DNA from: Puniceicoccus vermicola
GTDB lineage: Bacteria; Verrucomicrobiota; Verrucomicrobiia; Opitutales; Puniceicoccaceae
DNA: 64,000 bases
Direction: 5' to 3'
Assembly (NCBI RefSeq): GCF_014230055.1
Contig: NZ_JACHVA010000081.1
Coordinates: 7,501-71,500, forward strand
Shown: piece by piece, positions 24,088 through 43,075 of the stretch
Layout: every line of letters starts with the position of its first letter
How positions within the stretch are numbered: position 1 is the first letter of the stretch
Notes under the pieces: generated by a model
The model's database searches: none
Told to the model about the DNA's origin: nothing
What the model saw: only the letters and a program-made list of their open reading frames with translations
Translations under genes and position numbers: made by a program

Positions 24088-26379
24088 ATGAGCCAAACGC
24101 CTACTTCTCCAGGGACCCCCAGCAAGGAAAGCTGGCAGGATATTCTTGCCGATTTCCTTAGGAAGAAGGGCAACTTAGAAGCGATTCTCGTCAAACCGGA
24201 GGAACGACGAGTGGCTTTGGCTACGCTGGGCCCGTCGGACGAAGGCGAGCTGGAGGAAACGCTCCGGGACACACTTTCCCGGGTCATCGAAGAGCTCGAA
24301 AACGAACGCCGCGAGAAACACTGGAAAAGCGCGCCGATCATTCACAGCCGAGGCATTCTCGTCAAAAATATCGACGGCCAGCTGCTCTTTGAAAAAGCAA
24401 GCTGCCCGACCGCTCCCCATTTCTGGCGGTGGCGCGAATTCTCCTGGCCCGACGAGCAAGATTCCGAAGAAGAAGCCACCGGCGAGGAATGGCGTTTCCT
24501 CTCCGCACTCGCGGGGATTTGCGGGGTCTCACTCGCAGCCGGATTTCTTCTGGAAAAGACCGGAATGATTTCCTTCCCGGTCGCTATCTGCTTCTACGCA
24601 GTTTCGATGATCGCAGGCGGATGGGATGCCTCGATCGACGCATTCCACAAGGTTCGTCGCGGCGTTCTCGACATCCACTTCCTCATGCTCGCGGTGGCAG
24701 TCGGCGCCACCGCGATCGGTGCCTACATCGAGGGGGCTCTTCTCCTCTTCCTCTTCTCCCTCTCGGGTGCGTTGGAACACTTCGCGATGTATCGCACCCA
24801 TCGCGAGATCGGGTCGCTCGTCGCCAATGCCCCGAAGAAGGCGCGCCTCAGCCTCCCAGATGGAACTTTTCGCGAAGTCCCCATCGGCGAGGTCGAAATT
24901 GGGCAGGTCGTCCAAGTGAAGCCCGACGAACTCTTTCCCATCGATGGAAATTTAATCAGCGGGAAAACGGCGGCCGACGAAGCCAACCTCACCGGAGAAT
25001 CCGTTCCGGTGGAAAAAGAGAAAGGGGATAAAATTTTCGGCGGCACCCTCAACCTCTGGGGCTCCGTCCAGATGGAGGTCACCCGACGGGCCGAGGACAG
25101 CTCCCTTCAGAAAATCATCCGCCTCATCCACCAGGCCCAGAAGCAGAGGGCTCCGAGCCAACGATTCACCGACCGCTTTGGAACTCACTACACCTATCTG
25201 GTGCTCGCCGCCACCGCACTCGTGTTTTTCGGCTGGTGGCTCATCATGGGACTCACACCATTCCTGGGGACCGAAAGCGAGCCTTCTGCCTTCTACCGCG
25301 CCATGACTTTCCTCGTCGTCGCCAGCCCCTGTGCGCTCGTGCTCTCGATCCCCTCAGCTATTTTGGCCTGCATCGCTCGCGGAGCCCGCATGGGAGTGCT
25401 TTTTCGGGGAGGAGCGCCGATTGAAAAACTGGCCGAAATCGATTGTGTCGCTCTCGACAAGACTGGCACGCTGACCACGGGCGAGTTGGAAGTTACGGGA
25501 GCCGAGAGCTTTCCCCCAGGCTCCGAGCAGCTCATTCTCGAGACCGCCTACTCCCTCGAGCGCAACTCCAACCACCCGATCGCCCGTGCCATCACCCAAT
25601 ATGGGGAGAAAAACCACCTCAAAGCCGTGGAGGTCAGCGAGTTTCAATCGATCAGTGGCCAAGGGATTCGAGCCGTTTCGGATGAGGAAGTGTGCTTCCT
25701 CGGGCGCCGCGAACTTTTCTCCCGAGACGATCTCGGCGAGGTGTTGCGCAACGTCCCCGATCCCCCTCCGGCCATCACCGAGGTCTGGGTGGTTCACCGT
25801 GGCCTCATCGGACGCGTCCTCCTGCAGGACCGCATCCGCTCCCAGTCAGCCCAAGTGCTGCGACGTTTTCACGATCACGGCATCCGCACCGTCATGCTGA
25901 CGGGTGACCGTCGATCGACCGCCGAAGAAGTTGGCAAAAAACTTGGCATTGAAGAGGTTCGAGCCGGTCTGTTTCCCGAGGACAAGGTGCAAGCCATCCT
26001 CGATCTGAAAGCGGAAGGCCGCAAGGTCGCGATGGTCGGGGACGGGGTCAATGACGCCCCTAGCCTCGCTGCCGCCTACGTCTCTGCGGGCATGGGCGCC
26101 CGCGGGAGTGACGCCGCTCTGGAGCAGTCCGAGATCGTCCTCATGAACGACCGAATCGAAAAGTTCCTCGACGCTTTTCTGCTCAGCGTCCGCGCCAAGA
26201 GGATCATCCGGTGGAACCTGACCATCGCCCTCGGCACCGTCGTTCTGATGATGGGAACCTCCATTCTCGGGCTCGTGCCCCTCACCGTGGGAGTTATCGC
26301 CCACGAGGGAAGCACCGTCCTCGTCTGCCTCAACAGCCTCCGGCTCCTGTTTCTGAGACTGGAATCAGACGAGAGCTAG
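24088..26379 (+). CDS. P1B-4-type heavy-metal P-type ATPase (Co2+/Fe2+/Zn2+ class)
   Basis: 763 residues. The first ~145 residues are an acidic cytosolic region without the CxxC metal-binding domain of CopA or ZntA. Six main membrane segments follow, in three pairs. Phosphorylation site DKTGTLT is at Asp457, the actuator loop has LTGESVPVEKEKGD, and the hinge GDGVNDAPSL is intact. The transport motif in the sixth helix is SPC (413-415) rather than CPC, and the last helix carries HEGST (739-743). SPC plus HEG[GS]T is the signature of P1B-4 ATPases (CoaT/CtpD/PfeT group). The role would be efflux of cobalt, ferrous iron or zinc. The exact metal cannot be read from sequence. Confidence 0.9.
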   Translation: MSQTPTSPGTPSKESWQDILADFLRKKGNLEAILVKPEERRVALATLGPSDEGELEETLRDTLSRVIEELENERREKHWKSAPIIHSRGILVKNIDGQLLFEKASCPTAPHFWRWREFSWPDEQDSEEEATGEEWRFLSALAGICGVSLAAGFLLEKTGMISFPVAICFYAVSMIAGGWDASIDAFHKVRRGVLDIHFLMLAVAVGATAIGAYIEGALLLFLFSLSGALEHFAMYRTHREIGSLVANAPKKARLSLPDGTFREVPIGEVEIGQVVQVKPDELFPIDGNLISGKTAADEANLTGESVPVEKEKGDKIFGGTLNLWGSVQMEVTRRAEDSSLQKIIRLIHQAQKQRAPSQRFTDRFGTHYTYLVLAATALVFFGWWLIMGLTPFLGTESEPSAFYRAMTFLVVASPCALVLSIPSAILACIARGARMGVLFRGGAPIEKLAEIDCVALDKTGTLTTGELEVTGAESFPPGSEQLILETAYSLERNSNHPIARAITQYGEKNHLKAVEVSEFQSISGQGIRAVSDEEVCFLGRRELFSRDDLGEVLRNVPDPPPAITEVWVVHRGLIGRVLLQDRIRSQSAQVLRRFHDHGIRTVMLTGDRRSTAEEVGKKLGIEEVRAGLFPEDKVQAILDLKAEGRKVAMVGDGVNDAPSLAAAYVSAGMGARGSDAALEQSEIVLMNDRIEKFLDAFLLSVRAKRIIRWNLTIALGTVVLMMGTSILGLVPLTVGVIAHEGSTVLVCLNSLRLLFLRLESDES

Positions 26380-32676: not shown

Positions 32677-33425
32677 TGTGTACGGCAACTTGGATGGAGG
32701 GTGACCGTTTTCGGTGCTTCCTATTTAATCGGGATGAGCGCCGGACCCGCCCGGTCGAAGTGCCCCCGCGAATACACGAACCGATTCACCTCCCGCGATT
32801 CCTCGCTCCAACCGACCCACAAAGCCAAGGAAGCTGGATCGCCGTGAATGAGTACGGTTTGACCGCCGCGATTCTAAACCATTACGACGCCAGCACCCAA
32901 ATGGGAAAGCCAAAGCATCCGGAAACCATTAGCCGCGGCACCCTTCCCATTACCGCGGTCGCCCACAAACGCGCGGAGCAATCGATCTCCGAAATCGCCG
33001 GGCGAGTGCAAGAATCCCATTTCGAGCCATTTCATCTCGTCCTCTACTCGGCCGACGGCGATGGTGAGCTCCTGACCTGGAACGGCTCAACCCTGACCAA
33101 CTCCAACATCACCGAGGTAAAACTTCCCCTGACGACCTCCTCGTGGAAGAGCAATGAGGTCACAGAATTTCGACGAGACCTTTATCAGAAGCAGGTCGGG
33201 ATCCGCCCCAAACTTCATGAGCTCCTGGAGTTCCACGGGACATCCACCCCCGATCAACCCGCCTATGGTCCGGCAATGGTCCGAGACGATGCCCATACCC
33301 GCTCTCTCACCATCGTTCGCCTCGGAGGCGGGGAGATTTCGATGCGGCACCAATTTTTTGATCCGGAGAACAGTACGTTTCTCAACCCCACGGAGGTCCG
33401 GACCCCGCGCAAACTCTTTTCATGA
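32676..33425 (+). CDS. NRDE/TANGO2-family protein
   Basis: 249 residues. The family name motif appears as FLFNRDERRTRP (about 15-26), followed by GSWIAVNEYGLTAAILNHYD, the usual strand pair after it. The protein begins Met-Cys; in this Ntn-hydrolase-like family the second-position Cys is conserved and could act as an N-terminal nucleophile once Met is removed. Eukaryotic TANGO2 is linked to lipid and heme handling, while bacterial members are uncharacterised. The gene overlaps its upstream neighbour by one base and its downstream neighbour by four (ATGA), so all three are one transcriptional and translational unit. Confidence 0.82.
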   Translation: MCTATWMEGDRFRCFLFNRDERRTRPVEVPPRIHEPIHLPRFLAPTDPQSQGSWIAVNEYGLTAAILNHYDASTQMGKPKHPETISRGTLPITAVAHKRAEQSISEIAGRVQESHFEPFHLVLYSADGDGELLTWNGSTLTNSNITEVKLPLTTSSWKSNEVTEFRRDLYQKQVGIRPKLHELLEFHGTSTPDQPAYGPAMVRDDAHTRSLTIVRLGGGEISMRHQFFDPENSTFLNPTEVRTPRKLFS

Positions 33426-36037
33426 ACGCACGGCGCAAGAAGTGGTTCCTCTGGATTCTGGCTCTCTATTTGGTCCTCTTGGGTGCATCCCATCTCAAGA
33501 GAGCGGTCTTCCCGACGAAACCGGTCCTGGATCGAGAGCAAAAAACCTTTGTCGCCCAGGGCTATGGCGAGGACGAGGGGAACTCGATCCGCATCGCCTA
33601 TCTCGATGAAGGCCCCAAGGATGGGATCCCGGTCCTCCTCATTCACGGGAGCCCGGTCGCAACGGATGCTCTCCTGCCGCTTCTTGACGAGCTCCCCGAA
33701 GATCTCCGCCTCATCGCCCCGGACCTCCCTGGGCACGGCAACTCCACCTATGAGGTAGAGGATGGGTCCTTTCGCGCCGACGCGGACTACCTTCACCAGC
33801 TCATTGAATCCCTCGGCATTCCTTCGGTCCAGGTCGTTGCCTACAGCCGGGGCGGAGGTCCGGCCCTCCAGATGATCCAACAGCATCCCGATGAGGTGAG
33901 CAGTCTCATTCTCGTGTCGTCCATCGGAGTTCAAGAGCAAGAGCTCCTGGGAAACTATACCCTCAACCACGCTCTACACTCTCTGCAGCTCGGCTTCTTC
34001 GTCCTCGTCGAAGAGCTAGTTCCCCATTTCGGCTACCTCGACAACGCGATCCTCAACAGCGACTACGCCCGCAGTTTTTCGGATGCAGACCAGCGCCCAC
34101 TCCGCAAAATCCTCTCCCAGGTCGAAGTTCCGACTCTGATCATTCATGGAAAGGAAGATGCTCTCGTCCCCGTCTCGGCAGCCCGGGAGCATCACCGCAT
34201 CGTCCCCCAGAGCGAACTGGTGGAGATGAAGGGTGGTCACATACTGATCATGAGAAAAGCGGCCGACGTCGCTCGGCGGATCGACGGTTTCGTCCATGAA
34301 TCGGCAGCAGGTGTCGCCCGGGCAAAGGCGGACGCCTCGCCAACCCGCCTGCTGCAAGCTGCCGAAAAGAAAGCTTCGAGTCCGGGCGCTCCCGCCTCCG
34401 GTCGAGGATTGATGTTTCTCGCCGTCATTCTCTTTTTTGCCACCTTCGCCAGCGAAGATCTTACCTGCGTGATCGCTGGAATCCTCGCAGCAGCCGGAAC
34501 CTTGTCCTTTACGGTGGCCACGCTCGCTTGCTTCCTCGGCATCCTGGTCGGCGATCTCGCGATTTTCTTCGGCGGTCGATTCTTCGGGACACAAGCGGTC
34601 CGTTATCCGCCGTTCCGCTGGGTTCTCACCGAGGAGCGTCTCGACACCGCTCAAGAATGGTTTATCCGCCGCGGCGCAGTCGTAATCCTCTCCTCCCGCT
34701 TTATCCCCGGCAGCCGACTCGCGGTCTATTTTGCGGCAGGAATGGCCCGAACCCAGGTATCCAAATTCCTCCTCTACTTCCTGATCGCCGCGATTATCTG
34801 GACCCCCTTGCTCGTGGGACTCGCGATGCTCATCGGGAACCCCCTGCTTCAGATTTTCGCCAGATTCGAGCACTGGGCCCTCCCCGCCCTCATCGTGCTG
34901 ATCGCCTTCATCCTCTTCGTGACCAAGGTAATCGTACCGCTCCTCACCGCCCGCGGACGTCGCATCTCCTACGGCTCCTGGAAACGAAAGGTCCGCTGGG
35001 AGTTTTGGCCTCGTTGGATTTTTTACCCTCCCGTGGTTCTTTGGGTTCTCTGGCTCGGGATCCGGCACCGCAAACCCTCCCTCTTTACCGGAGCCAATCC
35101 GGGAATCGCAGGAGGTGGGATCGCCTTCGAGTCCAAACGTGAGATCTACTCCCTCCTGGAATCGGGAAAGGGCCAGATCGCCCGGACTCTCTCTCTCCCC
35201 CCTCAAGGCTCCGTTCAAGAGTGGCTCCCACAGATCCGCAGTTTTCAGGATCAGCTACCGTCCCCGTTTCCCTTGGTCTGCAAACCGGATTTCGGCGAAC
35301 GGGGCGATGGGGTCTCGATTGTTCACAACGAGTCTGATCTGATCCGCGCCCTTGAGGAGATTGACCGGGATCCGATCGTCCAAGAATTTATCCCCGGCCT
35401 GGAATACGGGATTTTCTTCGAAAAGAAGCCCAGCGAATCCAAGGGACGCGTCACATCAATCACCCGCAAGATTCATACAACCGTGACCGGAGATGGGATC
35501 AAAACGCTTGATGAACTGATTCTCGCAGACGATCGCGCCGTCTGCTGCTATTCTTACTTCCGCGACAAGCATCGTGCGCACCTGCTCTCGATTCCTCCCA
35601 AAGGAGAAGAATACGAACTGGCGACCCTCGGATCCCATTGCCGTGGCAGCCTCTTCCTCGACGGATCGTCACTACTCACTCCCGAGCTCACTGAGGCGGT
35701 TAACCAGATCTTCGACGGGGTGGAAGGCCTCTGCTTCGGTCGTCTGGACGTCAAGTGCCCATCCGATGAAGACCTTCAAAGAGGACAGCACCTGACCGTC
35801 CTCGAATTTAATGGGATCACCTCAGAACCCACCCACATCTACGACCCGAAGCACTCCCTCATGTACGCCTACAGCGTAGTCTTCGCCCAATGGGCTCGGG
35901 CCTTCGAGATCGCTGCAGAGAACCGAAAGGCGGGACACGAACCTTGGTCCGCCGGAAAAACTCTTCACCTCATGGTCAACGCGATGAGAGGTCGGCCAGT
36001 TAAAACCAAAGAGAAGACCCAAACCCCTGCCTCGTAA
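33422..36037 (+). CDS. Three-domain fusion: alpha/beta hydrolase, DedA/SNARE-associated membrane domain, ATP-grasp domain
   Basis: 871 residues. A membrane anchor (about 7-23) leads into an alpha/beta hydrolase: oxyanion strand VLLIHGSPVATD, nucleophile elbow VVAYSRGGGPA with Ser142, acid Asp246 in IIHGKEDALVP, and His273 in MKGGHILIM. A DedA-type domain with several membrane helices spans about 330-505 and includes FFGGRFFG and SSRFIPGSRLAVYFAAGM, the RFxPG signature. A C-terminal ATP-grasp domain spans about 550-840, with FPLVCKPDFGERGDGVSIV (nucleotide lysine and loop), IVQEFIPGLEYGIFF and LTVLEFNGITSEPTHIYDP (metal-binding Glu/Asn). DedA proteins flip or scramble lipids; ATP-grasp enzymes ligate carboxylates to amines. 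The union suggests membrane-lipid or lipid-linked-substrate modification. I know of no characterised protein with this architecture. Confidence 0.85.
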   Translation: MNARRKKWFLWILALYLVLLGASHLKRAVFPTKPVLDREQKTFVAQGYGEDEGNSIRIAYLDEGPKDGIPVLLIHGSPVATDALLPLLDELPEDLRLIAPDLPGHGNSTYEVEDGSFRADADYLHQLIESLGIPSVQVVAYSRGGGPALQMIQQHPDEVSSLILVSSIGVQEQELLGNYTLNHALHSLQLGFFVLVEELVPHFGYLDNAILNSDYARSFSDADQRPLRKILSQVEVPTLIIHGKEDALVPVSAAREHHRIVPQSELVEMKGGHILIMRKAADVARRIDGFVHESAAGVARAKADASPTRLLQAAEKKASSPGAPASGRGLMFLAVILFFATFASEDLTCVIAGILAAAGTLSFTVATLACFLGILVGDLAIFFGGRFFGTQAVRYPPFRWVLTEERLDTAQEWFIRRGAVVILSSRFIPGSRLAVYFAAGMARTQVSKFLLYFLIAAIIWTPLLVGLAMLIGNPLLQIFARFEHWALPALIVLIAFILFVTKVIVPLLTARGRRISYGSWKRKVRWEFWPRWIFYPPVVLWVLWLGIRHRKPSLFTGANPGIAGGGIAFESKREIYSLLESGKGQIARTLSLPPQGSVQEWLPQIRSFQDQLPSPFPLVCKPDFGERGDGVSIVHNESDLIRALEEIDRDPIVQEFIPGLEYGIFFEKKPSESKGRVTSITRKIHTTVTGDGIKTLDELILADDRAVCCYSYFRDKHRAHLLSIPPKGEEYELATLGSHCRGSLFLDGSSLLTPELTEAVNQIFDGVEGLCFGRLDVKCPSDEDLQRGQHLTVLEFNGITSEPTHIYDPKHSLMYAYSVVFAQWARAFEIAAENRKAGHEPWSAGKTLHLMVNAMRGRPVKTKEKTQTPAS

Positions 36038-36118: not shown

Positions 36119-37237
36119 GTGCAGGATTCAATAACCCCCGGTTTAGGAGAACGCTCCAAAATTCTCGTCGTCGACGATTCAGTGGAAACACTGGAGATGA
36201 TTTGCAAGATTCTCGAAGAACAGGGACATAAGACATTCGGCTTCGAAAAAGCCACCGAAGCCCTCGAGTCGGCAGAGAGCATTCAACCCGATCTCATTCT
36301 CCTCGACGCGATCATGCCGGATCCCGATGGCTATCGCTCGTGTGAGCTGATTCGGGAAATCGACTCTCTGAGCCACGTCCCCATCATTTTTGTCAGCGGA
36401 GTTCAGGAACCCTTCGAAAAGGTTCGCGCCTTCCAAGTCGGAGCCGTCGATTATCTGACCAAGCCCTTCCACGCCAAAGAGATCGATGTTCGCATCACCA
36501 CTCACCTGGAATTAAGCCGCAAGCAGGAAGAGGCCCGGGCCACCGCGAGAACGCTCAGCGATTTGGTCGAACAGCAGGTGCAAGAAATCTCCCAATCCCA
36601 GATGGCGCTGATTTTCGCGTTGGCCAAACTCTCCGAGTCCCGCGACTTCGAAACGGGAAAGCACATGGCGAGGATCCAGATTTTCTGCAGAATCCTCTCT
36701 CTGGAACTGCGCAAAGGTCCCTACTCCGAGCACATCGACGATAGGTTCCTCGAAGACATCGTCTGCACCAGCGCCCTCCATGACATCGGAAAAGTCGGCA
36801 TTGAGGACAGCATCCTCCTTAAACCGGGAAAGCTCACACCCGACGAGTTCGACATCATGAAGCGCCACTCCGTCATCGGTGCCGACACCTTGCACGCGGT
36901 CTTTAAAAAGTTCCCCTCCAACCATTTTCTCTCCATGGCCATCAAGATCGCCCGCTCCCACCACGAAAGATGGGACGGCACCGGATATCCCGATGGCCTC
37001 GCCGGTGAAGACATCCCCCTCTGCGCCCGGATCATGGGCTTGGCGGACGTCTACGATGCCCTTCGCTCCCGCCGGCCCTACAAGGATCCATTCTCCCACG
37101 AGAAAGCTGTAGCAATCATTAAAGAAGAGAGCGGAACCCATTTCGACCCCCGTATCGTCGACGCATTCCTCGCCTGCGAACAGGAGTTTTCCGCGACGCG
37201 GGAAAAGATCTCCAATAGCGAGCCTCCCACAACCTAA
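36119..37237 (+). CDS. Response regulator with HD-GYP c-di-GMP phosphodiesterase domain
   Basis: 372 residues with a GTG start at 36119. The receiver (about 13-130) has the acidic pair in ILVVDDSVE, phosphoacceptor Asp63 in LILLDAIMPDPDG and Lys in YLTKPF. A coiled linker (about 135-170) connects to an HD-GYP domain with ALHDIGKVG (His221, Asp222), IARSHHERWDGTGYPDGLAG (GYP at 289-291) and LGLADVYDAL. All residues for cyclic di-GMP hydrolysis appear present. No histidine kinase is adjacent; the orphan hybrid kinase at 12-15.7 kb is one possible partner but nothing ties them. The GTG start lacks a strong ribosome site. Confidence 0.93.
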   Translation: MQDSITPGLGERSKILVVDDSVETLEMICKILEEQGHKTFGFEKATEALESAESIQPDLILLDAIMPDPDGYRSCELIREIDSLSHVPIIFVSGVQEPFEKVRAFQVGAVDYLTKPFHAKEIDVRITTHLELSRKQEEARATARTLSDLVEQQVQEISQSQMALIFALAKLSESRDFETGKHMARIQIFCRILSLELRKGPYSEHIDDRFLEDIVCTSALHDIGKVGIEDSILLKPGKLTPDEFDIMKRHSVIGADTLHAVFKKFPSNHFLSMAIKIARSHHERWDGTGYPDGLAGEDIPLCARIMGLADVYDALRSRRPYKDPFSHEKAVAIIKEESGTHFDPRIVDAFLACEQEFSATREKISNSEPPTT

Positions 37238-40606: not shown

Positions 40607-40636
40607 TATTTCTCTCGATTGCCACGAATTAGAAAA

Positions 40637-43075
40637 ATGGAAAACCATTCCCGCGTAACCATTGAATACGATGACCGGATTGTCCGGCAGTTCACGATTG
40701 CCTCGATCTTTTGGGGCGTCATCGGAATGTCGGCCGGAGCCCTCATCGCCTCACAGCTAAACTTTTGGCAGATGAACGGAAAGTTTCTGGAGTGGCTAAC
40801 CTTTGGCCTCATCCAGAACGAAGGCCTCCAGCAAATCACTTTCGGACGCCTCCGCCCCCTCCACACAAACGCGGCCATCTTCGCATTTGTCGGGAACATG
40901 ATGTTCGCCGGTGTCTACTACTCCACCCAACGACTCTGCCGCTGCCGGCTCGCCTCCGACCTACTCTCCAAAATTCACTTCTGGGGATGGCAACTGATCA
41001 TCGTCGGAGCGGCAATCTCTCTCCCGATCGGTCTTACCCGCGGGAAGGAATACGCCGAGCTGATTTGGCCGATCAACATCTGCGTGGTGCTGATCTGGGT
41101 CGTCTTCGCCATCAATTTCTTCTGGACCTTGATCCGACGCAATGAGCGCAGCCTCTACGTTGCCCTCTGGTTCTACATCGCGACAATCGTAACCGTGGCG
41201 ATGCTCTACATCGTTAACCACCTGTCCATCCCGACCAGCTTCACCCACAGCTACCCGATATTTGCCGGGGTTCAGGATGCTCTCGTCCAGTGGTGGTATG
41301 GACACAACGCCGTAGCCTTCTTCCTGACGACACCGATCCTCGGGATCATGTACTACTTCATCCCGAAAGCGGCTCAGCGCCCGGTCTACAGTTACCGCCT
41401 CTCGGTCATTCACTTCTGGTCGCTGGTCTTTATCTACATCTGGGCCGGCCCTCACCACCTCTTGAACACCGCCCTGCCAAGCTGGCTCCAAGCTCTCGGA
41501 ATGATCTTCAGCCTCATGCTCTGGGCGCCCTCCTGGGGGGGAATGCTCAACGGCCTCCTCACCCTTCGCGGGGCTTGGCACCGTCTTCGCACGGACCCGG
41601 TTCTCAAGTTCCTCATTGCCGGAGTGACATTTTACGGGATGGCCACTTTCGAAGGCCCCCTCCTCGCTATCAAATCCCTAAACAGCCTCTCCCACTATTC
41701 AGACTGGACCATCGGTCACGTCCACTCGGGAACTCTTGGTTGGAACGGTTTCATGGCCGCCGGGATGTTCTACTGGCTCGCACCCCGCCTCTGGCGGCGG
41801 AAGAAGGACCCGGTCGAACCCCACGATGCCGAAGTCAGCTGCCGGGGTCTTCACTCGGTCGCCCTCGCCAATCTCCACTTCTGGCTGGGGATGATCGGCA
41901 TCCTCCTCTACGTCGGAGCGATGTGGGTCTCCGGAATCACTCAGGGCATCATGCTCAACGCGGTCAACGGCACGACTCTCGCCTACCCCGAGTTTATCGA
42001 AACCCTGAATGCAATTCGGGCACCGATGCTGTTCCGCCTCATCGGCGGCGTTTTCTACCTCGCAGGCTATGTGTTGCTGGCCTACAATATTTTCCGCACC
42101 ATTCGCGCCGGGGAACCGACCACAGGAACAATCGAAGTCGAGATCGATGAGTCGCGTGAACCCGGCTTCCTCAAAGCCTTCATCAATGCTCCAGTCGCCT
42201 ACTCGACCGGAATCATTGTTTTCGGATCCTTCTGGCTCTTTGGGGGCGGCGGATGGCTCATCCTTGGGATGATCGGTTCCATTCTCACCGTTCTCGGGGC
42301 CGTAGCCCACTTTGAGATCAGTGGTGCCCGCTGGGTCGAATGGTACGACAAGCTCCTCAAGAACTGGGCGGGCTTTACCATCCTGACCTTCATCTCCGTC
42401 GCGATCGGCGGTGCGATCCAGATTATTCCGACAATTACAGTCGAGCGGGCCTCCAACATCGAAGGCCGAATCCAGATCCCCTACACGCCCCTCGAACTCG
42501 CCGGACGCGATATCTTCATCAGTGAGGGTTGCTACAATTGTCACAGCCAAATGATCCGGACCATGGTCCCGGACGTCCTCCGCTATGGCTCCCGCCAGGA
42601 TCAGGGGTATTCCCGCCTCGGTGAGTCCATTTATGACTTCCCCTTCCAATGGGGCTCCAAGCGGACTGGTCCAGACCTCGCCCGCGAAGGCGGTGCGATC
42701 AAGGACGGATACACCTATATGCGGATCGGGAAACGGGATAACGTCTGGCAGTATGGTCACTTGATGAATCCACGAGATCTTTCTCCCGGATCGACGATGC
42801 CGAACTATCCGTTCCTCGCCGACCAGAAGATCGATATTCCCAGCCTCGCCGACCGTATTGCCGTTCAACGTGACTGGCTCGGAGTGCCCTACCCGGTCGA
42901 GATGGACGAAGAGATTGTCCGCAGTCTCGCCGAAAAGCAGGCGCTCGAGATCGCCAATGATTTGAAAGAACGGCAGTTCTATGTCGATCCCGACAGCAAG
43001 ATGGTCGCTCTCATCTCCTACCTCCAAAAGCTCGGAGCCTACGAGGAGACCGCTCGAACCGCCAAAAACGATTAA
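40637..43075 (+). CDS. ccoNO: cbb3-type cytochrome c oxidase, fused subunits I and II (CcoNO)
   Basis: 812 residues from ATG 40637 (a TTG at 40619 would add six residues). The CcoN part, about 1-480, has the heme and CuB ligands in RPLHTNAAIFAF, WWYGHNAVAFF, WAGPHHLLNT and IGHVHSGTLGWNG. A linker with further membrane helices (about 520-600) leads into CcoO, with heme c motif CYNCH near 632 in EGCYNCHSQMIRTM and an axial Met in SPGSTMPNYPF. The complex reduces O2 with high affinity and pumps protons. Normally ccoN and ccoO are separate genes; here one reading frame covers both, without interruption. It is followed by ccoQ, ccoP and ccoG. Confidence 0.96.
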   Translation: MENHSRVTIEYDDRIVRQFTIASIFWGVIGMSAGALIASQLNFWQMNGKFLEWLTFGLIQNEGLQQITFGRLRPLHTNAAIFAFVGNMMFAGVYYSTQRLCRCRLASDLLSKIHFWGWQLIIVGAAISLPIGLTRGKEYAELIWPINICVVLIWVVFAINFFWTLIRRNERSLYVALWFYIATIVTVAMLYIVNHLSIPTSFTHSYPIFAGVQDALVQWWYGHNAVAFFLTTPILGIMYYFIPKAAQRPVYSYRLSVIHFWSLVFIYIWAGPHHLLNTALPSWLQALGMIFSLMLWAPSWGGMLNGLLTLRGAWHRLRTDPVLKFLIAGVTFYGMATFEGPLLAIKSLNSLSHYSDWTIGHVHSGTLGWNGFMAAGMFYWLAPRLWRRKKDPVEPHDAEVSCRGLHSVALANLHFWLGMIGILLYVGAMWVSGITQGIMLNAVNGTTLAYPEFIETLNAIRAPMLFRLIGGVFYLAGYVLLAYNIFRTIRAGEPTTGTIEVEIDESREPGFLKAFINAPVAYSTGIIVFGSFWLFGGGGWLILGMIGSILTVLGAVAHFEISGARWVEWYDKLLKNWAGFTILTFISVAIGGAIQIIPTITVERASNIEGRIQIPYTPLELAGRDIFISEGCYNCHSQMIRTMVPDVLRYGSRQDQGYSRLGESIYDFPFQWGSKRTGPDLAREGGAIKDGYTYMRIGKRDNVWQYGHLMNPRDLSPGSTMPNYPFLADQKIDIPSLADRIAVQRDWLGVPYPVEMDEEIVRSLAEKQALEIANDLKERQFYVDPDSKMVALISYLQKLGAYEETARTAKND

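Follow-up and report, generated by a model that had tools for sequence, protein, structure and literature searches.

What might a single bacterial polypeptide do that joins an alpha/beta hydrolase, a DedA-type membrane domain and an ATP-grasp ligase, and is such a polypeptide real? The question is raised by a gene in a 64,000-nucleotide stretch of the Puniceicoccus vermicola genome (assembly GCF_014230055.1, contig NZ_JACHVA010000081.1, positions 7,501 to 71,500), here called the window. An earlier note on this DNA had described the three families in one uninterrupted frame and proposed an enzyme that cleaves a lipid ester, flips the lipid and attaches an amino acid or similar group. Our analyses confirmed the observation and partly supported this interpretation: all three domains of the fusion are under purifying selection, and the protein probably builds or remodels phosphorus-free ornithine-type lipids.

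The open reading frame begins with ATG and encodes 871 amino acids without interruption. In a Pfam scan, Abhydrolase_1 matched with an E value of 3.5e-24 (86 bits vs. a cut-off of 25.8; best stretch residues 70 to 171), Abhydrolase_6 spanned residues 71 to 285, and VTT_dom (PF09335), the DedA family domain, matched residues 353 to 467 with an E value of 2.4e-15 (57.5 bits vs. a cut-off of 33.9). No curated ATP-grasp family scored above its cut-off in the window protein; ATP-grasp_3 matched residues 608 to 664 at an E value of 0.0016, below its own cut-off. The ATP-grasp identity is firm because a profile of 47 family members matched solved structures, with E values of 9e-13 for glutathione synthase and 2e-10 for cyanophycin synthase. 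The residues singled out in the earlier note are all present, namely the Ser142/Asp246/His273 triad, the RFxPG motif (RFIPG, residues 426 to 430, within SRFIPGSR, which contains R426 and R432) and the ATP-grasp motif KPDFGERGDGVSIV at residues 621 to 634. A hydrophobic segment near the basic N terminus (residues 7 to 30) is probably a membrane anchor, the membrane side of which we infer. The architecture is built from known domain families and, as the note had supposed, is undescribed in the literature searched: searches on DedA with ATP-grasp found nothing relevant, and those on ornithine lipid with ATP-grasp found only a review mentioning ATP-grasp acyl-histidine synthesis.

Two genomes of the same genus carry the three-domain frame, G002 (contig L063) at 70% and G001 at 62% identity, and many Verrucomicrobiota families have it at 31 to 47% identity. 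At least 23 Verrucomicrobiota genomes besides that of the window share the domain order (at least 24 in all), so the architecture recurs rather than being unique. Comparison of the window with L063 gave a nearly saturated pS of 0.72 at synonymous sites, against a proportion of nonsynonymous differences (pN) of 0.20 overall and 0.19, 0.17 and 0.21 in the hydrolase, VTT and ATP-grasp domains, respectively; the linker and termini are looser. Purifying selection thus acts on all three domains. Assignment of three families, the conserved frame and the pS/pN pattern exclude a single-family protein, a frameshift, an assembly join or a chance join.

In the family alignment, K621, E661 and D776 of the ATP-grasp domain are each present in 47 of 47 sequences, E795 in 44 and N797 in 42. 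Conserved acidic residues and arginines are required for DedA function, and the corresponding E345/D346, D378, R426 and R432 are kept in 34 to 36 of 36 to 37 sequences. The best-conserved stretch overall lies between the two domains (residues 513 to 560), where the window and L063 share 83% identity and E527, P530, P537 and N559 are conserved in 91 to 100% of the 47 sequences; its WEFWPRWIFYPP segment is also found in stand-alone ATP-grasp relatives, and we consider it likely to be a membrane-surface anchor. Of the 24 three-domain proteins, 14, among them those of the window and both same-genus relatives, retain a complete hydrolase triad; in the other 10 it is broken, most commonly by a Ser-to-Gly change, with retention of G169, N182, P201, D223 and P262. 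Because the triad is lost while these other positions persist, the role of the hydrolase domain is not always catalytic, and because the domain is also absent from two-domain and one-domain relatives, the function common to the family does not depend on hydrolysis. The losses of Ser, Asp or His with fold positions kept (L071-L074, L080 and L082-L086) represent repeated pseudo-enzyme formation within the fusion.

The family is modular and recurring, and is not confined to the P. vermicola genome. Counted at E < 1e-20, the ATP-grasp unit occurs in 39 of 388 sampled Verrucomicrobiota genomes, 2 of which carry genes that look split or broken: in G119 (C10:18666-20207) as adjacent split frames, and in G261 (C1:1518204-1519179) with several in-frame stops and shifts. 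The 40 loci, including the window, comprise 24 three-domain, 11 two-domain (DedA plus ATP-grasp, ∼540 to 610 residues) and 5 one-domain (ATP-grasp, ∼370 to 400 residues) versions. Three-domain proteins are dispersed across a tree built from the ATP-grasp unit, which requires at least 3 changes when only well-supported branches are used and 10 on the tree as drawn; either repeated fusion or a three-domain ancestor with repeated loss of the hydrolase could explain this. ATP-grasp relatives also occur on plasmids or chromids in Azospirillum (there fused to VTT), Komagataeibacter, Paracoccus, Variovorax, Vibrio, Photobacterium and Salinivibrio. The stand-alone proteins of L105, L106 and other plasmid relatives are publicly annotated as D-alanine--D-alanine ligase; the Ddl model hardly matches the family, and Pfam Dala_Dala_lig_C gave no match in the window protein and a weak match in 6 of 47 family members. 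A phage origin was rejected, as the matches found in phage records, themselves unannotated, were partial and limited to the VTT region, and a PADLOC search gave no match and thus no sign of a defence-system role.

What the family acts on is suggested by the genes beside it. Of the 40 Verrucomicrobiota loci, 10 have a gene of OlsF/OlsB type within ∼9 kb; these 10 are all among the 16 two-domain and one-domain loci, and random placement would give ∼0.2 of 40 (estimated by assuming one to two copies per 4 Mb). The linkage is also found at three proteobacterial loci. In the marine Vibrionaceae Vibrio sp. THAF191d and Photobacterium sp. GJ3, VTT, ATP-grasp, DinB, NRDE, YHS, DoxX-like and OlsF-like genes form one run, and in Variovorax the gene immediately after ATP-grasp is OlsB-like. 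At L103 (G136 C1:5305188-5307540), a stand-alone ATP-grasp gene is preceded by YHS and DoxX-like genes and followed directly by two tandem OlsB-type genes; near the family gene, YHS occurs in 9 and DoxX-like in 5 of the 40 loci. An OlsF-like protein, with PF19576 (PlsC-like) and PF13444 halves and an OlsF model score of 389 bits, is encoded on contig C33 of the window's own genome, and a YHS homologue on contig C53. PF13444 is commoner in genomes with the family than in those lacking it (16/18 vs. 10/34, p 8e-5; 32/39 vs. 185/349, p 5e-4).

Because relatives adjoin genes for phosphorus-free ornithine-type lipids, we tentatively favor, at somewhat short of an even chance, an explanation in which the fusion is an amide ligase, bound to the membrane, driven by ATP and equipped with a translocation domain of its own, that acts on ornithine-lipid-type acyloxyacyl amino-acid lipids. 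An OlsF/OlsB-type acyltransferase encoded elsewhere in the genome would, by homology, first make an N-acyl, O-acyl amino acid lipid, a synthesis shown for OlsF/OlsB in the literature. Activation of a carboxylate as an acyl phosphate and its coupling to an amine is the reaction type of the ATP-grasp family; here the cytosolic ATP-grasp domain would link either a small amine or amino acid to the carboxylate of the lipid, or the carboxylate of an amino acid to the free amine of the lipid, a substrate choice suggested by gene context. The DedA/VTT domain would then carry the product across the inner membrane, as its family membership implies, and, where the triad is retained, the hydrolase domain may trim or remodel the lipid, probably at the periplasmic face; in triad-less lineages it may serve only in binding or structure. 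Coupling and transport are the stronger parts of this mechanism and the hydrolase is the weakest. The proposal in the earlier note fared correspondingly: lipid-linked chemistry is supported by the OlsF/OlsB context and by intact DedA and ATP-grasp signatures, whereas the order of its steps is not, and the hydrolysis is weakened, the triad being lost in 10 of 24 proteins.

A narrower version, which we regard as rather unlikely, is a single-chain aminolipid ligase-flippase in which the ATP-grasp domain is the missing type of enzyme that joins a second amino acid or amine to an acyloxyacyl amino-acid lipid, in the style of ornithine-taurine or glycine-serine lipids, with export of the product by DedA and editing by the hydrolase. 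Such mixed-residue aminolipids exist, and a 2023 review described the route to glycine-serine lipids as unknown (PMC10191378). We make no claim that the fusion makes ornithine-taurine or glycine-serine lipids specifically. If this version is true, no enzyme of two-residue aminolipid synthesis and export would have been identified genetically before the fusion. More generally, a cassette that ties an ATP-grasp ligase and DedA to OlsF/OlsB is a concrete, testable candidate for aminolipid biosynthesis steps lacking assigned genes, and, if an aminolipid role is true, it would provide a likely lipid substrate for a DedA protein, where most of the DedA family has none settled.

Several observations weigh against an aminolipid role. 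OlsF/OlsB genes are near 0 of 24 three-domain versions, and the link runs via two-domain and one-domain relatives and the shared DinB and NRDE neighbors. The tests of co-occurrence with PF13444 ignore shared ancestry and genome size, and several family genomes, such as G040, G214, G342 and G298, have no PF13444 match. Every OlsF/OlsB-like match falls below NCBIfam cut-offs, which leaves the loaded amino acid uncertain. To these are added the reported heme traffic by a bacterial TANGO2 homologue discussed below, and structure predictions that were not used, with a mean predicted local distance difference test score of 38 for the ATP-grasp part and 35 for the whole protein (two-sequence alignment). 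The PF13444-less genomes and the three-domain versions without linkage would fit an enzyme of another membrane lipid, such as a phospholipid or sphingolipid-like molecule, with the OlsF/OlsB neighbors reflecting a shared stress regulon rather than a pathway; we consider this unlikely, as OlsB/OlsF genes are directly adjacent in proteobacterial genera and in several Verrucomicrobiota.

The membrane and ligase domains also admit an envelope-precursor enzyme, in which DedA would recycle undecaprenyl phosphate like UptA, the ATP-grasp domain would add an amino acid to a peptidoglycan or other undecaprenyl-linked precursor and the hydrolase would trim it. UptA is indeed the best curated VTT match, but its 68.3 bits are far under the NCBIfam equivalog cut-off of 250 bits. 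A weak similarity of the ATP-grasp domain to D-Ala-D-Ala ligase and cyanophycin synthetase points the same way, as does the annotation of the plasmid homologues; however, no peptidoglycan genes were found among the conserved neighbors, whereas OlsF/OlsB genes were. We hold this enzyme to be slightly less probable still than one acting on another membrane lipid.

For the hydrolase domain there is the further possibility of a second acyltransferase, an OlsI-like enzyme that O-acylates a lyso-aminolipid, so that one chain would O-acylate the lipid, transport it and couple its head group. OlsI, which O-acylates ornithine lipid, has an alpha/beta-hydrolase fold (PMC12493201), and the window hydrolase matches the OlsI model at 4.5e-6. 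This amounts to 26.4 bits against an NCBIfam equivalog cut-off of 385, a generic fold match, and OlsI is outside the 25 families most often matched by the 24 homologues. The OlsF-like protein of the genome already has a PlsC-like acyltransferase half, and catalytic residues are lost in ten homologues. Because OlsI is outranked by many unrelated hydrolase families, which score far higher, this role was set aside as very unlikely.

Within the window, the fusion is the third gene of an operon (Table 1), the DinB-like and NRDE genes overlapping by 1 nucleotide and the NRDE and fusion genes by 4. The DinB-like protein has invariant His48, His51, His138, His141 and His142. The Met-Cys-Thr start of the NRDE protein is invariant, with Cys2 in 26 of 26 sequences, as an N-terminal nucleophile requires. 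Near the family gene, DinB-like genes occur at 28 and NRDE genes at 27 of the 40 loci, mostly co-directional and directly upstream, and both also recur as neighbors in Vibrionaceae. From this operon conservation, the NRDE protein (N-terminal cysteine, amidase-like fold) and the DinB-like protein may be accessory enzymes or carriers in the same pathway.

Table 1. Features of the operon and of the fusion protein, in window coordinates
Feature	Position	Strand	Basis
Operon gene 1, DinB-like, 186 residues	32116..32676	+	Pfam DinB_2 4.5e-8, conservation
Operon gene 2, NRDE/TANGO2 family, 249 residues	32676..33425	+	Pfam TANGO2 3.2e-13, conservation
Three-domain fusion gene	33422..36037	+	Open reading frame list, Pfam scan, homologues with identical domain order
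N-terminal hydrophobic segment, residues 7-30, basic N terminus	33440..33511	+	Hydropathy
Alpha/beta hydrolase domain, residues 40-295	33539..34306	+	Pfam Abhydrolase_1/_6
Hydrolase triad codons Ser142, Asp246, His273	33845-33847, 34157-34159, 34238-34240	+	
VTT/DedA membrane domain, residues 330-512	34409..34957	+	Pfam VTT_dom
Most conserved segment WEFWPRWIFYPPVV..RHRKPSLFTGANP, residues 513-560	34958..35101	+	Alignments
ATP-grasp ligase domain, residues 561-850 (K621, E661, D776, E795, N797)	35102..35971	+	Family profile

The TANGO2 family does not decide the pathway, because it has been modeled as an N-terminal nucleophile (Ntn)-type carbon-nitrogen hydrolase (PMC7612213) and reported to bind acyl-CoA (PMC11867700), and a bacterial homologue in Shewanella is reported to be a heme carrier (PMC10470608). 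The last of these, together with the carboxylates borne by heme and a cbb3 oxidase gene ∼5 kb downstream in the window, could suggest a heme or cytochrome c cassette led by the NRDE/TANGO2 protein, with the fusion modifying a heme-related or other small carboxylate. Of the explanations considered, we find this the least probable: the oxidase is not a conserved neighbor of the family, acyl-CoA binding and the Ntn amidohydrolase fold are also on record, HtpA was not replaceable by most homologues tested (PMC10470608), and the OlsF/OlsB linkage would be left unexplained. For TANGO2-type proteins, whose function is disputed, the operon supplies a bacterial context. Immediately after the operon, at 36119-37237 (plus strand), comes a gene for a response regulator whose output domain is of the HD type; it is not conserved beside the family elsewhere. 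The oxidase gene itself lies at 40619-43075 on the plus strand and fuses COX1/CcoN (residues 20 to 478) and FixO/CcoO (579 to 807) in one frame, an 818-residue cbb3 oxidase subunit I/II. Upstream, at 24088-26379 (plus strand), a 763-residue P-type ATPase has ∼245 N-terminal residues before its first Pfam match at the threshold used.

Comparison with known systems places the fusion beside several of them. In Paracoccus denitrificans plasmid 1 (PDEN_RS24475-24485), ATP-grasp, alpha/beta hydrolase and VTT are likewise together, but as three adjoining, unfused genes, with the VTT gene on the opposite strand and no DinB, NRDE or OlsF match in the stretch examined. With DedA/VTT transporters such as UptA, the fusion shares the conserved acidic and arginine residues and the RFxPG motif; it differs in scoring below the UptA cut-off and in having its VTT domain flanked on both sides by enzyme domains. 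The profile match, a common GDG..TL.eLI segment and the ATP/metal residues relate it to glutathione synthase, cyanophycin synthetase and RimK-type ligases, from which the family is distant, membrane-linked and set apart by its own N-terminal WEFWPxWxxYxP segment. The planctomycete OlsH-OlsI ornithine lipid pathway (PMC12493201) similarly pairs an alpha/beta-hydrolase-fold enzyme with an ATP-dependent amide former on aminolipids, but its genes are separate, its amide former is GH3-like rather than ATP-grasp and the hydrolase domains are not specifically related; a GH3/OlsH route was rejected, with no GH3 match in the window's genome. Finally, the genes of the OlsF/OlsBA ornithine lipid pathway recur as family neighbors, and the window's genome contains one OlsF-like gene. 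The fusion has neither acyltransferase of that pathway and would act after or beside OlsF/OlsB.

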